The notes below the pieces were generated by a model. It searched no databases, was not told the DNA's origin, and saw only the letters and a list, made by a program, of their open reading frames with translations. Shown one piece after another: positions 6,852 through 57,721 of a DNA stretch of 60,082 bases; the first letter of the stretch is position 1; every line of letters starts with the position of its first letter. The position numbers and the translations under genes are program-made. This DNA comes from Alphaproteobacteria bacterium (GTDB lineage: Bacteria; Pseudomonadota; Alphaproteobacteria; Geminicoccales; Geminicoccaceae): positions 1-60,082 of the forward strand of contig JALSGP010000023.1 in assembly GCA_026982705.1 (NCBI GenBank), in the 5' to 3' direction.

Positions 6852-7790
6852 GTGTCCGCGCTCCGTGCCCTGCTGGTGGAGGACGATCCCGAGGATGCCG
6901 CCCGCATCGCCCGCGCCGTGCGGGCGAGCGGCGCCGTGGCGCGGCTGGTCCACGTGCCCGACCGGGCCGAGGCCATGCGGGCGCTCGCCCGCGAGCCCTT
7001 CGACGTGGTGCTGGTGGACCTGAACCTCCCCGACACCCAGGGGCTCGCGACGGTGGACGCCTTCGTGCGGGCGCGCCCCGAACTGCCGCTGGTGGTGGTG
7101 AGCGCCTTCGGCACGGGGGATCTGGTGGTGGCGGCGGAGAGTCTGCGCCGCGGTGCCCAGGATTTCCTGCCCAAGGACCGGCTCGACGGTCTCGACCTCG
7201 CCCGTCCCTTGGTGCTGGCCCGCGCCCGCAAGCGCGGCGAGCGGGAGCGCCTCGCCGCCCGGGGCCGCGATCCCCTCACCGGCCTGCCCGACTTCGCCGC
7301 CTTCCGCTGCGGCCTCGAGCGGGCGCGGCTGCGGGCCCTGCGCCACGGCGCCGGCCTCGGCCTCGGTCTCCTCGGCATCCGGGGCTACTGGTGCCGTCTG
7401 CGCGACTGGGGGGAGGAGTGGGCCTGCATGCTGGAGCGGGCCCTGGCCGCCGCCCTTCACCGCACCATGCGACGGACGGACGACCTCGCCCGCGTCGCCC
7501 CCGGCCGCTTCGCCCTGCTGCTGGAGGAGGTGCGCGACGGCGAGGCGGTGACGCGGGCCCTCGACCGCATCCGGCGCGAGGCCGGGGCGGAGCTGGCCCG
7601 CCGGGCCGGTGAGCGGCTGCCCCTCGCCGTGGCCGGCTGCTGGCTGGGACCGCACGAGCCGGTGGTGCCGGAACTGCTGCTGGCTCAGCTCCGCGGCGCC
7701 CTGGAGGCGGACGGGGACGACGCCCCGGTGCTGCCGGCCCCCGTGCCGGAAGCCGGCGGCGTGGCGTCGCCGGCCGCCTGCGGACGATAG
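6852..7790 (+). CDS. Response regulator with degenerate GGDEF domain
   Basis: 312 residues. An N-terminal receiver domain has the acidic pocket (VEDDPEDA), the phospho-acceptor Asp in VVLVDLNLP (about residue 55) and the conserved Lys in LPKDRLD. A GGDEF-like domain follows, recognisable by DPLTGLPD (about residue 137). The catalytic signature is replaced by VAPGRF, where active enzymes have GGDEF. The metal-binding DxDxFKxxND stretch is also missing, so it cannot be an ordinary diguanylate cyclase. It may act by protein contacts or GTP binding. GTG start with GGGGAG 8 bases upstream. A CtrA-like box precedes it. Its 3' end overlaps convergent rlmE by 106 bases. Confidence 0.82.
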   Translation: MSALRALLVEDDPEDAARIARAVRASGAVARLVHVPDRAEAMRALAREPFDVVLVDLNLPDTQGLATVDAFVRARPELPLVVVSAFGTGDLVVAAESLRRGAQDFLPKDRLDGLDLARPLVLARARKRGERERLAARGRDPLTGLPDFAAFRCGLERARLRALRHGAGLGLGLLGIRGYWCRLRDWGEEWACMLERALAAALHRTMRRTDDLARVAPGRFALLLEEVRDGEAVTRALDRIRREAGAELARRAGERLPLAVAGCWLGPHEPVVPELLLAQLRGALEADGDDAPVLPAPVPEAGGVASPAACGR

Positions 7791-8392
7791 TCCTCGCACA
7801 CCAGATAGAGTTCGGAGGACTCGGCGCGGGTGGCCCGGGGACGGACGAAGCGCACCCGCGCGAAGCGGGCGGCGGCGAGGGGGCGGATCGCCGCCTCGGC
7901 CCCCGCCACCAGCTTGAGCACCAGCAGTCCGCCCGGTGCCAGCACCTCCGGCAGCAGCGCCAGGATCTCCTCCGCCACCGCCTCCGCCCGCAGCCGGTCG
8001 GTGACGCGATCGCCGATGGCGTCGGGAGCGAGATCGCTCAGCACCACCTCCGCCGGGCCGCCCAGCTCGGCCCGCAGCCGCCGCCACAGCGCCGGATCGC
8101 GCACGTCGCCGCGCACGAAGCGGACGCCCTCGACGGGCGCCATCTCCAGCCGGTCCACCGCCACCACCCGGCAGCCGCGGCGGGCGGCGTACTGGCTCCA
8201 GCTCCCGGGTGCCGCACCGATGTCCAGCACCCGGGCTCCCCGCCGCAACAGCCGGAAGCGCCGGTCCATCTCCTCCAGCTTGTAGACGGAGCGGGCCCGA
8301 AAGCCCTCGGCCCTGGCCCGCCGTACCCAGGGATCGCGCGCCTGCCGTTCCAGCCAGCGCCGGGAGGAGGCGGAGCGGCGTCGGCGGCTCAT
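7685..8392 (-). CDS. rlmE: 23S rRNA 2'-O-methyltransferase RlmE (FtsJ/RrmJ family)
   Basis: A 235-residue S-adenosylmethionine-dependent methyltransferase; in the family it modifies U2552 of 23S rRNA. The K-D-K-E catalytic tetrad is visible in order: RSVYKL, LSDLAPD, LVLKL, SSELYL. The SAM loop is VLDIGAAPGSWSQY. The conserved domain ends at CEDYRP; the last 33 or so residues (Ala/Ser/Gly-rich) are an unusual tail read antisense through the end of the neighbouring regulator gene. The start overlaps the ppx stop (ATGA), so the two are co-transcribed. Confidence 0.92.
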   Translation of the reverse strand: MSRRRRSASSRRWLERQARDPWVRRARAEGFRARSVYKLEEMDRRFRLLRRGARVLDIGAAPGSWSQYAARRGCRVVAVDRLEMAPVEGVRFVRGDVRDPALWRRLRAELGGPAEVVLSDLAPDAIGDRVTDRLRAEAVAEEILALLPEVLAPGGLLVLKLVAGAEAAIRPLAAARFARVRFVRPRATRAESSELYLVCEDYRPQAAGDATPPASGTGAGSTGASSPSASRAPRS

Positions 8393-9363
8393 GCGACGGC
8401 CTCCGCCACCACGGTGAGATGCAGCGACGGCGCCGTCTCGCCGCAGGCCTCCCGCACCAGTCCCTCGAGGGGCCCCCGGTCGGCGGCGACGAAGCGGGTG
8501 CAGCCGAACCAGTCCATGACCGTCTCCAGGATGGCGGCGCCGGTGGCGAGCACGTCGGCCCGCCGCGGTCCCACCAGCGGATGGGCGCACCGCCGTTCCG
8601 GCGACCAGGCGACGAACGTCTCCCGCGCCCGCACCAGTGCCGCCGGCGCCAGCACCGCCCCGTCGATCCGCGCCCGGTCCGGCTCCGCCAGTCCGAGGGC
8701 GAGGCCGGCCAGCACCGTGGCGGTGCCGGAGGTGCCGATCAGCGTGGCGCCGGGCTCCGGCGCCAGGGCGGGAAGGCCGCTCCGCGCCAGCGCCGCCCGC
8801 ACGGTGGCGGCGACGGCGGCGAAGACCGCCGGATCGGCGCCATCGCCCAGCCGCTCGCGCAGCACCACCGCCCCCAGCGGCAGCGAGACGCCCACCCACG
8901 CCGCCCCCGGCCGGTGGAGCAGGATCTCGCTGCTGCCACCGCCGATGTCGGCGATCACCGTCCGCGGGGCCGCGGGATCCACGAGTGGCCGGCAGGCCAG
9001 CAGCGCGAGGCGCGCCTCCCGCTCGGCGCTCGCGATCTCGAGCGGCCAGCCCAGGGCGCGCGCCCGGTCGAGGAAATCGCGGCCGTCGGCGGCCCGCCGC
9101 GCCACCTCCGTCACCACCCCGCGACGCTCCGTCGCACCCTCCGCCCGGGCGAGGCGGTCGTAGTCGGCGAGGACCGCCAGCGTGCGCGCCACCGCCGCCG
9201 GCGCCAGCCGGCCGCCGCGCGCCAGCCCCTCGCCCAGCCGCACCAGCCGCTGGACGCCGCGGAGCGGCCGGAAGCCCCCGGGCCCCACCTCGGCGATCAG
9301 GAGCCGGCAGTTGTTGGTGCCGAGATCGAGGGCGGCCACCCGCCGCCGTCCGCCTGCCCTCAC
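8389..9363 (-). CDS. ppx: Ppx/GppA family phosphatase
   Basis: 324-residue exopolyphosphatase/guanosine pentaphosphatase family protein. The ASKHA-type phosphate-binding loops are visible: AALDLGTNNCRLLIAEV at the N-terminus, TEVARRAADGRDF, and VIADIGGGSSEILL. The length matches the short single-module alphaproteobacterial form, which often lies next to rlmE, as here (4-base overlap). Substrate (polyphosphate or pppGpp) is not decided by sequence. Confidence 0.9.
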   Translation of the reverse strand: MRAGGRRRVAALDLGTNNCRLLIAEVGPGGFRPLRGVQRLVRLGEGLARGGRLAPAAVARTLAVLADYDRLARAEGATERRGVVTEVARRAADGRDFLDRARALGWPLEIASAEREARLALLACRPLVDPAAPRTVIADIGGGSSEILLHRPGAAWVGVSLPLGAVVLRERLGDGADPAVFAAVAATVRAALARSGLPALAPEPGATLIGTSGTATVLAGLALGLAEPDRARIDGAVLAPAALVRARETFVAWSPERRCAHPLVGPRRADVLATGAAILETVMDWFGCTRFVAADRGPLEGLVREACGETAPSLHLTVVAEAVA

Positions 9364-55089: not shown

Positions 55090-55836
55090 TCAGGCCAGCC
55101 CCACACCGGTGACGAGGAGGAGCTCGTCCACGAAGGCGGGGACGATCTCGCCGGCCCGGCCGAAACGGTGGAGGTGGAAGAGATCGCTCACCGCGCTGCG
55201 CTCCAGATTGAGCTCCACGGTGAGGGCGCCGTGCCGGCGCGCCACCTCCACGAAGCCGGCGGCGGGGTACACCTGGCCGCTGGTACCCACCGCCACGAAC
55301 AGCCGGCATCGTTCGAGGGCGGCGTGGATGACCTCCAGATGGTAGGGCATCTCGCCGAACCACACCACGTCCGGCCGCAGGGTGCCGCGGCGTCCGCAGG
55401 CGGGACAGACCGTCTCCACCCCGAGATCCCCACGCCATTCGCGACGTTCGCCGCAGGCGGTGCAGAGGGCCTTGAGCAGCTCGCCGTGCATGTGGAGGAG
55501 TCGACGGCTGCCCGCGCGCTCGTGAAGGTCGTCGATGTTCTGGGTGACCAGCAGGAAGGGGCCGGGCCAGCGCCGCTCCAGCATCGCCAGCGCCTCGTGG
55601 GCGGGATTGGGACGGACGGCGGGATCCAGGAGCGCCCGGCGCCGAGCGTCGTAGAAGGCGTGGACGCGTCCGGGATCGCGGGCGAAGGCCTCGGGCGTGG
55701 CCACGTCCTCGAGACGCACCCGCGCCCAGATGCCGTCGGGATCGCGGAAGGTGGGGATGCCGGACTCCGCCGAGATTCCCGCCCCCGTCAGCACCACCAG
55801 CGGGGCATCCGCCGGCAGATCGCGCAGCGCCTCCAT
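55090..55836 (-). CDS. cobB: NAD-dependent protein deacylase (Sir2 family, CobB type)
   Basis: 248 residues. VVLTGAGISAESGIPTFRDP, TQNIDDLHERAG, catalytic His in LHMHGELL, and the zinc cysteines CTAC and CPAC. FYDARRRAL carries the Tyr-x-x-Arg pair found in class III sirtuins, which suggests desuccinylase as well as deacetylase activity. It converges on flhB. Confidence 0.92.
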   Translation of the reverse strand: MEALRDLPADAPLVVLTGAGISAESGIPTFRDPDGIWARVRLEDVATPEAFARDPGRVHAFYDARRRALLDPAVRPNPAHEALAMLERRWPGPFLLVTQNIDDLHERAGSRRLLHMHGELLKALCTACGERREWRGDLGVETVCPACGRRGTLRPDVVWFGEMPYHLEVIHAALERCRLFVAVGTSGQVYPAAGFVEVARRHGALTVELNLERSAVSDLFHLHRFGRAGEIVPAFVDELLLVTGVGLA

Positions 55837-55983: not shown

Positions 55984-56514
55984 TCAGACCCTGCCGACGA
56001 TGGCGGCGCTGGAGCAATGATAGACCATGTTGGGCGCCCCGAAGCACCAGACAATGTCGTTGTTGAGCTGCGGCCGGTAGACCGGCATTTCGCCCTCGAG
56101 GGCGAGACAGGCGCACTGACCGCAGGAGTCCTTGCCGCAGCAGTCGCGATAGGCGATGAGATAGGCCTGCCCGTCGTCGGGATTGATGCAGGTCCCCACC
56201 CAGGAGCTGGGCGAGGGGTAGGTGCCGGGTGGACAGGTGGCGGGCCCGCCGCCGCAACAGCTGCACATGTAGCCGTCGATGGCGCAATAGCGCCAGTAGT
56301 TGCACTGGGTGGGATCCGTGGTCTGCGCCGTCTTCGCGAAGGCCTCGGCCCGCGCCCGGGAGACGGCGCCGCGGCGGTCCACCGGCAGGATCGGCACCAG
56401 CGCGGCGCCGGCCAGCACGGTGCCGAGGCGGGCGAGCAGGCTGCGGCGCGACGTCTTCTGGGCGATGCGCCGGGCCGCCTTCTCGACCAGATCGTCCAGT
56501 CTCACGGAAGCCAT
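55984..56514 (-). CDS. mauA: Methylamine/aromatic amine dehydrogenase light chain (TTQ subunit)
   Basis: 176 residues: a twin-arginine leader (TSRRSLLARLG, then GTVLAGAALVPILP) and the Cys-rich light chain. Cys spacing (CNYWRYC, MCSCC, TC, WVGTC, DCC, CGQCAC, VWC) lines up with the methylamine dehydrogenase light chain. The two tryptophans that form tryptophan tryptophylquinone are present (SSW, equivalent to Trp57, and DIVW, equivalent to Trp108), as is the Asp before CC (Asp76). There are 14 cysteines rather than the 12 I recall. The residue after the last Cys is Ser where the family has Thr. Periplasmic; oxidises a primary amine to aldehyde. Confidence 0.88.
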   Translation of the reverse strand: MASVRLDDLVEKAARRIAQKTSRRSLLARLGTVLAGAALVPILPVDRRGAVSRARAEAFAKTAQTTDPTQCNYWRYCAIDGYMCSCCGGGPATCPPGTYPSPSSWVGTCINPDDGQAYLIAYRDCCGKDSCGQCACLALEGEMPVYRPQLNNDIVWCFGAPNMVYHCSSAAIVGRV

Positions 56515-56530
56515 GACGGGAACCTCCCCC

Positions 56531-57721
56531 TCATTCGCCGATCACGTAGGTGAGGAAGGGCGAATCGCCGATCCCCTCCACCACGCCCCGCACCTCGTAG
56601 GTGGTGGCGTCGATGACGGTGACCGACGCCTCCTCGCTGAGGGCGAACAGCAGCGGCGCCTCGTCCTGGCTCACGCTGAGGGTGATGGCGTGGTGTTCGA
56701 GGGGAATGCGGGCGATGCGCCGGCGGGCGTTCGCGTCGAACACCCACACCTCCTCGCCGGCCTGCTTGTGGGTCCAGCGGCCGCCCCGGTGCACGAGCAC
56801 GAACAGCCGGTCGGTGGGGGCGTGATAGGCGAGGAGCTGCCAGCCGCCGGGCCGCCAGGACTCGGCACGGTCCGCCCGGCCGAGGAGCGACCACTCGCCC
56901 ACCACCCGCATGCGGCCGTCCTCCGGACGGGCCTCGTAGACCTTTCCCTCGTAGGTGACGAAGAAGGCGCGGCCGTCGGCGGTGGAGACCACGCCGTGCT
57001 CGAAGACGGGATCCGCCTCGGAGTCGAAGAAGGGCTCCTGATCGCGGACGGTGGCCCGGCCGTCGGGCTCGAAGGCCACGTCCACGAAGGAGCCGTCGGG
57101 GCACAGCATGGAGAAACTGCGCGGTCCCGTGGGGAAGACGAGGCTGCAGCCCGGCACCTCGATGTCGGTGACGTAGCGGAGCTCCCGCACGTCGACGACG
57201 CTCACGGTGGTGGCGGGATCCATGTTGAAGGACAGCAGATAGCGCCCGTCGGTGGTGAGCGCGAGATTGGGCTTCTTGGGCACCACCAGGAAACGGCCGC
57301 GCGGCAGCACCGTCTCCCCCACCGGCTCCAGCGTACGCCCGTCGTAGTAGGTGATCACGTCCACCCGCTCGCCGCGCGTTCCCCGGGACCAGTAGGTCTC
57401 GGCGACGTAGATGGCGCCGCCGTCGGCCGAGAGGGCCATGTTGGGAACGTAGCCCGTATTGAGCATGCCGAGGATGCGGCGACTGTCACCGTCGACGACG
57501 TAGACCTTGGAGGCGATCAGATGGGGGAAGACGGGATCCAGCACGTAGAGCCAGTGCGGACTGGCCTCGCCCAGCACGGCCGTGGTGTGTTCCTCCTCCA
57601 CCTCCAGCACCGCCTCCCCGGGCAGCCCTTCGATCCCCCGCTCCTGGGCCTCGAGGGGACCGGCCAGGAGGGCCACGAGTACGGCGGCACCGACCGCCTC
57701 TGCCGCGATGCGCACGGACAT
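56531..57721 (-). CDS. mauB: Methylamine/aromatic amine dehydrogenase heavy chain (beta-propeller)
   Basis: 396 residues: a signal peptide (VGAAVLVALLAGPLEAQ) and a seven-bladed propeller with HWLYVLDPVFPHLIASKVYVVD, MALSADGGAIYVAETYWSRG and ALTTDGRYLLSFNMDPAT, as in the amine dehydrogenase large subunit. It docks the TTQ light chain encoded 16 bases downstream. ATG 57721 follows AGGGAGGGGAGG. No mauE, mauD or mauG lies on either side. Confidence 0.88.
   Translation of the reverse strand: MSVRIAAEAVGAAVLVALLAGPLEAQERGIEGLPGEAVLEVEEEHTTAVLGEASPHWLYVLDPVFPHLIASKVYVVDGDSRRILGMLNTGYVPNMALSADGGAIYVAETYWSRGTRGERVDVITYYDGRTLEPVGETVLPRGRFLVVPKKPNLALTTDGRYLLSFNMDPATTVSVVDVRELRYVTDIEVPGCSLVFPTGPRSFSMLCPDGSFVDVAFEPDGRATVRDQEPFFDSEADPVFEHGVVSTADGRAFFVTYEGKVYEARPEDGRMRVVGEWSLLGRADRAESWRPGGWQLLAYHAPTDRLFVLVHRGGRWTHKQAGEEVWVFDANARRRIARIPLEHHAITLSVSQDEAPLLFALSEEASVTVIDATTYEVRGVVEGIGDSPFLTYVIGE

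Follow-up and report, generated by a model that had tools for sequence, protein, structure and literature searches.

A duplicated TTQ amine dehydrogenase gene pair in a genome without CCP_MauG matches, with a loop-deleted cytochrome as candidate maturase

MauG is a well-studied case of remote tryptophan oxidation in the building of protein-derived cofactors. The TTQ amine dehydrogenase family and the aau-type gene cluster are both known already, as is one mauG-free cluster of Alcaligenes faecalis, the original aau report being said to describe a cluster without that gene. How the cofactor is completed in aau-type enzymes with MauG-free clusters is, to our knowledge, an open question. Passages of PMC6405878 and PMC7876137 describe how MauG, after its reaction with peroxide, takes electrons from two precursor tryptophans over a long distance. 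Here we compare with these systems a pair of TTQ amine dehydrogenase genes that stands apart from any maturation gene.

The gene pair in the window

The window, by which we mean the whole stretch of 60,082 bases that was analysed, is contig C23 of a draft genome (G000; 2,655,386 bases, 48 contigs, 99.66% complete). Two adjacent genes on its minus strand, with PF02975 and PF06433 domains, are predicted to encode a TTQ amine dehydrogenase with both its subunits, the second such enzyme of the genome and a product of duplication, and the reality of the pair is confirmed far beyond chance. The light (beta) chain gene (55984..56514, minus strand; 176 amino acids) is mauA/aauA-like, belongs to the ED-less clade described below and passes the cut-offs of PF02975 (174.9 bits) and of the NCBIfam equivalog TIGR02659 (240.7 bits, cut-off 196.85). 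The heavy (alpha) chain gene (56531..57721, minus strand; 396 amino acids) codes for a mauB/aauB-like beta-propeller which passes PF06433 with 253.7 bits and remains under the cut-off of TIGR02658 (256.4 versus 454.45 bits), and hence outside the amicyanin-type methylamine dehydrogenase equivalog. Its N-terminus looks, by eye, like a Sec-type signal peptide.

The first-pass annotation of this DNA had placed the two genes 16 bases apart in the order B-A, with no maturation genes nearby, and both observations hold. The spacer occupies 56515..56530, and profiles for MauE, MauD, MauG, MauF, MauJ and the partner cytochrome find nothing but A and B in the 60,082 bases at E<1. The pair is neither a mau cluster, the window containing no MauG or MauF profile match and the genome no PF03150 match, nor an aau-type cluster (B-E-D-A plus cytochrome, MauG-free), since it has no E, D or cytochrome. 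A gene of the Sir2 family (55090-55836) follows the pair in the window, and the sister genome G003 has a related gene after its own pair.

Alignment of the light chain with 3c75_L brings W105, W156, D80, D124 and the SRR of the leader into register, W105 (codon 56200..56202, minus strand) and W156 (codon 56047..56049, minus strand) falling on the TTQ tryptophans of that structure. We take W105 and W156 to be Trp57 and Trp108 of methylamine dehydrogenase, and D80 and D124 to be D32 and D76, presumably with the same roles in TTQ. Both cofactor tryptophans are kept in 116 of 116 distinct light-chain rows. The leader covers approximately residues 1-57 (56344..56514, minus strand; end judged by eye) and carries at residues 22-24 the twin-arginine-like motif SRR, kept in nine of nine aligned members, which suggests export of the light chain through a Tat-like leader. 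When compared with the sister-genome copy (L052, G003), the light chain shows dN of about 0.063 and dS of about 0.408 (dN/dS about 0.15) and the heavy chain dN of about 0.154 and dS of about 0.522 (dN/dS about 0.30); these low ratios indicate purifying selection and therefore that both genes are kept. The best solved relatives of both chains are methylamine and aromatic amine dehydrogenases.

The C4 operon and the ED-less pairs

The first-pass annotation had reasoned that the maturase genes lie elsewhere or that another route builds the cofactor, and had proposed a search of the whole genome for them. That search divides the question. For mauE and mauD, "elsewhere" proved right: PF07291 (MauE) has a single match in the genome, at 109.3 bits on contig C4, within a run of mauB (395 amino acids), mauE (176 amino acids), mauD, mauA (177 amino acids) and, last, the gene for a small single-CxxCH protein, hereafter cyt2; the mauD of this operon scores 227.4 bits with TIGR02661, over its cut-off. 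For MauG, another route is favoured, PF03150 (CCP_MauG) giving zero matches over the whole genome, so that no complete mauEDG set was found elsewhere in it. The C4 operon itself is of the aau type, B-E-D-A plus cytochrome with no adjoining MauG. In this it resembles the aau-type plasmid clusters, none of which (0 of 7) has MauG within about 5 kb on either side of the light chain, contrary to the earlier premise that MauG lies near aau clusters.

The window and C4 paralogues share 69% identity in the light chain and 51% in the heavy chain. Since mauE and mauD are both on C4, the disulfide genes are present and could serve the window pair in trans; a genome devoid of disulfide genes, which had been considered, is ruled out. 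A sensor kinase gene and a response regulator gene lie upstream of the C4 operon (L002) in the same orientation (7138-9308), and a kinase gene related to that of L002 is also found upstream of the cluster in L057.

The light chain is present in 17 of the 145 relatives searched, G000 included. Pairs in which neither E nor D stands between the two genes or next to them, here called ED-less, occur in G000 (the window), G003, G016 and G024, those of G003 and G024 being seen on short contigs only (4,164 and 6,871 bases). In the light-chain tree these pairs group into one clade (bootstrap 91, SH-aLRT 85). A B-E-D-A-cytochrome cluster is additionally present in G003 and G016; the second copy of G024 runs off its contig, leaving only A and the cytochrome visible.

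As to the substrate, the heavy chains of the window and of C4 score 190.7 and 191.0 bits respectively against aromatic amine dehydrogenase structures, versus 219.6 and 199.8 bits against methylamine dehydrogenase structures. In G016 some 1.7 kb separate the ED-less pair from phenylacetate genes of the paaA/paaC type (L053, G016:C4, 4324-6462 and 8190-9905 for the two together), which may be a hint at phenylethylamine as substrate; such genes were seen beside this ED-less pair only and beside none of the others.

Cluster types and MauG across loci and genomes

A scan of species genomes confirmed at least 576 relatives. The best 80 entered the analysis, and these loci consequently lean towards close kin of the window. 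Together with the loci of the relatives, of plasmid records and of a phylum sample, they make up 123 light-chain loci, reducing to 116 distinct light chains. cyt2 was sought within 1.8 kb and MauG within 9.5 kb where the stretch reaches that far, several being shorter. The profiles, including A2, built from 36 cyt2 sequences, derive in part from loci that were later classified; the phylum sample is independent, G000 apart.

Among the 123 loci (best 80 of at least 576 included), 95 carry cyt2 and 22 carry MauG/MauF, the stretches examined never showing the two together; the remaining six have neither. Five of the six are ED-less records (the window, G003, G024 and, under the two handles L053 and L072, G016 twice), and the sixth is L090, in which the reading frame of cyt2 is interrupted. 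Of the 101 loci that have no MauG/MauF, in other words, 95 carry cyt2. In Paracoccus denitrificans PD1222, the MauF, MauJ and MauG profiles match the genes so annotated, and cyt2 has no match in the stretch. A tree of the 116 distinct light chains places the 20 MauG-type rows on one side of a single branch (SH-aLRT 100), and a single change of cluster type suffices to explain it. Both types, MauG-type and cyt2-type, coexist in five genomes of one genus (g6). In the MauG-type cluster of that genus, the gene after mauG (L069, 9498-11072) combines a cytochrome b-type membrane domain with several CxxCH motifs further on, as judged by eye.

The neighbouring genes of 22 loci were clustered without preselection, and the remaining loci were searched with profiles made from those clusters. 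The widely recurring families at the 22 loci were B, E, D, A and cyt2, the next family having five members. In the aau-type plasmid clusters of Pseudomonas, Paracoccus, Chimaeribacter and Cupriavidus, mauA is followed by two cytochrome genes, and the same holds, by profile only, for the aau-type cluster of Burkholderia; in Haematobacter the second annotated cytochrome gene begins past the heme motif, and in Novosphingobium aromaticivorans cyt2 alone follows mauA. An extra cysteine pair in the light chain was considered as a marker of the cyt2 type and rejected, since each cysteine is found not only in 85 of 91 distinct cyt2-type light chains but in 6 of 20 distinct MauG-type ones as well.

Other neighbours were observed locally. 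A multicopper oxidase gene (L055 1388-2797, checked with Pfam) stands beside the cyt2-type clusters of five relatives, where it forms one blast cluster (L055, L056, L059, L062 and L064), and a multicopper oxidase is also annotated alongside the cluster of Chimaeribacter arupi (L166 6421-7944). On the Sphaerotilus plasmid NZ_CP035710.1, a partial light-chain match (90470-90760, H30) lies beneath a gene annotated as cytochrome c.

MauG was then considered at the scale of whole genomes. TIGR03791 (TTQ_mauG), which has zero matches in G000, was dropped as a test because it scores the MauG adjoining mauA in Paracoccus denitrificans (L138, 10892-12058) at 96.8 bits, far below its cut-off of 443.85; annotation relying on it would miss this MauG, and PF03150 was used instead. 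As a positive control, PF03150 matches in 18 of 18 genomes with MauG/MauF-type loci and finds, in Paracoccus denitrificans G219, one protein whose coordinates agree with those of the L138 mauG. Among genomes with a kept cyt2-type locus, 27 of 60 (23 of 49 plus 4 of 11) are without any PF03150 match, the 60 including one genome through its second locus (L084) and leaving out that of L074. Some PF03150 protein is held by the other 33, and in at least one of these, the genome of L073 (apparently G030), it is the MauG beside a second, mau-type cluster.

PF03150 is absent from 7 of the 17 light-chain genomes among the relatives, including G016 (100% complete, 8 contigs) and the single-contig G039, together with less complete genomes such as G014 (70%) and G002 (89%). 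In the phylum sample it is likewise absent from 3 of the 11 additional genomes whose light-chain match is strong, two of the three being single-contig (G273 and G363). The sister genome G003 (74% complete) has one PF03150 protein, with 218.2 bits for the MbnH-type and 210.6 for the TTQ_mauG model, both below cut-off. MauG independence is well supported.

The presence of cyt2 follows that of the light chain closely. In the A2 runs the best 27 (relatives) or 10 (phylum) first-look candidates per genome were scored, and G000 counts in both samples. Over the 145 relatives, 23 genomes match at E 1e-5; the 17 strong ones (E 1e-32 or better) are exactly the 17 light-chain genomes, and the other six give weak partial matches. 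In the 396 phylum genomes the light-chain family is matched in 14, strongly in 12 (the two weak ones being G411 and G435), and these 12, and no others, also give a strong cyt2 match (E 1e-24 or better); 17 other genomes match cyt2 weakly, at best 3e-12. All 13 further strong light-chain loci of the phylum sample are cyt2-type, which means that no MauG-type cluster occurred in this small sample.

cyt2 and the candidate maturation route

cyt2 is a protein of about 140 residues with a single CxGCH heme motif, the histidine of which is its only fully conserved histidine. NCBIfam gave no match for the four members tested, and the Pfam cytochrome c cut-off (21.3) was passed weakly by two of five (23.5 and 25.3 bits). 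The closest solved relatives are entries of Thermus thermophilus c552 (hmmsearch, 87 bits). A confident model of the sister-genome cyt2 (mean pLDDT 93.3) matches c552 with a Foldseek E of 3.8e-4 and a VIA-align Z of 11.0 (rmsd 2.4 over 107 residues); the matches listed by Foldseek and VIA-align for this model include no peroxidase, which is no evidence against that function.

The c552 fold is present in cyt2, and the loop with the axial methionine is not. The alignment of cyt2 with 2fwl skips chain residues between 50 and 74, and Met69, given as the axial ligand of c552 in a passage of PMC10635480, falls inside the skipped stretch. The segment between two conserved residues measures 25-26 residues in 73 of 73 cyt2 rows. 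In all 14 rows of "cyt1", the other cytochrome of the same operons at some loci, it measures 43-44 residues and contains a G-x-M motif. The 73 cyt2 and 14 cyt1 rows were separated by eye from the alignment before segment lengths were counted, and the 73 include some same-locus duplicates; one cyt1 of L061, the L063 member (late-called start) and L090_10035 (no in-frame heme motif) were left out. An earlier impression that cyt1 also lacks the methionine was an artefact of a column-filtered alignment, the full segments showing Met in 14 of 14. Within the stretch examined, 42 of the 73 cyt2 rows have no Met and the others have one in varying position, some of which may thus possess a different sixth ligand. 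By eye, c552 shares several of the residues that are invariant in cyt2 beyond the deleted loop. In Ferruginivarius sediminum a single frame of 321 residues (L074 9453-10415) has two heme motifs in place of cyt1 and cyt2, its second part being counted among the 73; it is perhaps a cyt1/cyt2 fusion.

Because the axial-methionine loop is missing, the heme of cyt2 should have an open sixth site. Taken with the position of the gene beside that of the light chain and its absence at MauG-type loci, this makes cyt2 the best candidate oxidant. A precedent for such a heme exists in the C14A/M69A double mutant of c552, described as five-coordinate in a passage of PMC10635480, which also cites artificial peroxidases obtained by axial-ligand exchange, c552 appearing in the cited titles.

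We propose that the duplicated pair is matured without MauG, with MauE and MauD of C4 acting in trans and cyt2 as the TTQ maturase, a reading to which we assign a probability of roughly 0.55. The light chain would be exported by its Tat-like leader and would receive its disulfides from the C4 MauE and MauD, after which its tryptophans would be cross-linked and oxidised to TTQ in a MauG-free reaction. The catalyst would most likely be cyt2, encoded directly after the C4 mauA, whose open heme site would react with peroxide or oxygen and would draw electrons from both tryptophans, as methylamine dehydrogenase is matured by diheme MauG. Once complete, the enzyme would work in the periplasm, oxidising a primary amine and handing the electrons to some carrier. 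The role of cyt2 as TTQ maturase is inferred from genome sequences; that it acts on the light chain, uses peroxide and serves the ED-less pair is likewise putative, trans action being assumed because no cyt2 lies beside that pair.

The main rival takes cyt2 for a mere electron acceptor, a counterpart of amicyanin, and leaves the completion of TTQ to an unlinked enzyme. Small c-type cytochromes next to dehydrogenases often act as acceptors, a general habit which speaks for this explanation, as does the mau cluster of PD1222, where amicyanin directly follows mauA. Moreover, the co-occurrence of cyt2 with the light chain and its exclusivity with MauG would equally suit an acceptor. However, a cytochrome deprived of its axial-methionine loop should carry electrons poorly, and the two-cytochrome loci already possess the Met-bearing cyt1, yet cyt2 occurs in 95 of the 101 loci free of MauG/MauF. 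An acceptor would also leave TTQ maturation unexplained in genomes without PF03150. Weakened by the lost ligand and by cyt1, this explanation appears rather unlikely to us.

Non-MauG systems might also use a different route altogether, either a cytoplasmic flavoprotein acting before Tat export, in the manner of QhpG, LodB or GoxB, or autocatalysis. A flavoprotein has a precedent, CTQ being built by such enzymes according to a passage of PMC7876137, and the Tat-like leader of the light chain would permit modification before export. Against it, the 22 loci whose neighbours were clustered without preselection show no widely recurring family beyond B, E, D, A and cyt2, an argument that concerns linked genes; we consider this route improbable. 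An ordinary mau system split over contigs, its MauG missed through assembly gaps or divergence, could be imagined from the 48-contig draft and the PF03150 protein of G003, but it is already disfavoured and very improbable given that G000 at 99.66% completeness is PF03150-free, that G016 and the single-contig G039, G273 and G363 are too, and that PF03150 does detect MauG in Paracoccus denitrificans (G219).

Maturation of the pair by cyt2, if correct, invites a broader and more tentative generalisation, which we place just short of even odds: many TTQ amine dehydrogenases in Pseudomonadota, and conceivably the majority, may be matured without diheme MauG by a dedicated, c552-like monoheme cytochrome whose axial-methionine loop was lost so as to open the heme, and one such maturase may also serve ED-less pairs. 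Proteins of the MauG family are missing from entire genomes that retain the enzyme, the two cluster types are mutually exclusive (123 loci, including the best 80 of at least 576), and there is one small conserved candidate gene. Should cyt2 be the maturase, nature would have made in c552 the axial-ligand change that engineers used for artificial peroxidases, as cited in PMC10635480. Among the matches listed from open-licence PubMed Central, no title describes MauG-free TTQ genomes or a TTQ-maturing role of cyt2; within the same literature, the lack of MauG throughout the genomes of many TTQ organisms, the mutual exclusivity of MauG and the ligand-loop-deleted cytochrome, and ED-less duplicate pairs all appear to be new.

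Set against the known proteins, cyt2 shares with Thermus thermophilus c552 the fold and the C-terminal part, whereas it misses about 18 residues which in c552 include the axial methionine. With MauG it shares the proposed role only: it is about 140 residues long with one heme motif, and the relative found by its profile is c552 and no diheme peroxidase. The window pair resembles methylamine dehydrogenase (mauFBEDACJG) in its two-subunit build and in a light chain over the TIGR02659 cut-off, but MauF, MauJ and MauG are absent beside it, its heavy chain is below the TIGR02658 cut-off and its light chain falls outside the MauG-type group of the tree. Aromatic amine dehydrogenase structures fit both heavy chains of G000 no better than methylamine dehydrogenase ones. 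The aau clusters differ from the window pair, which is without E, D and cytochrome, while the C4 operon resembles them in its TTQ residues, in MauG not adjoining and in its order, B-E-D-A-cytochrome, which is that of annotated aau-type clusters.
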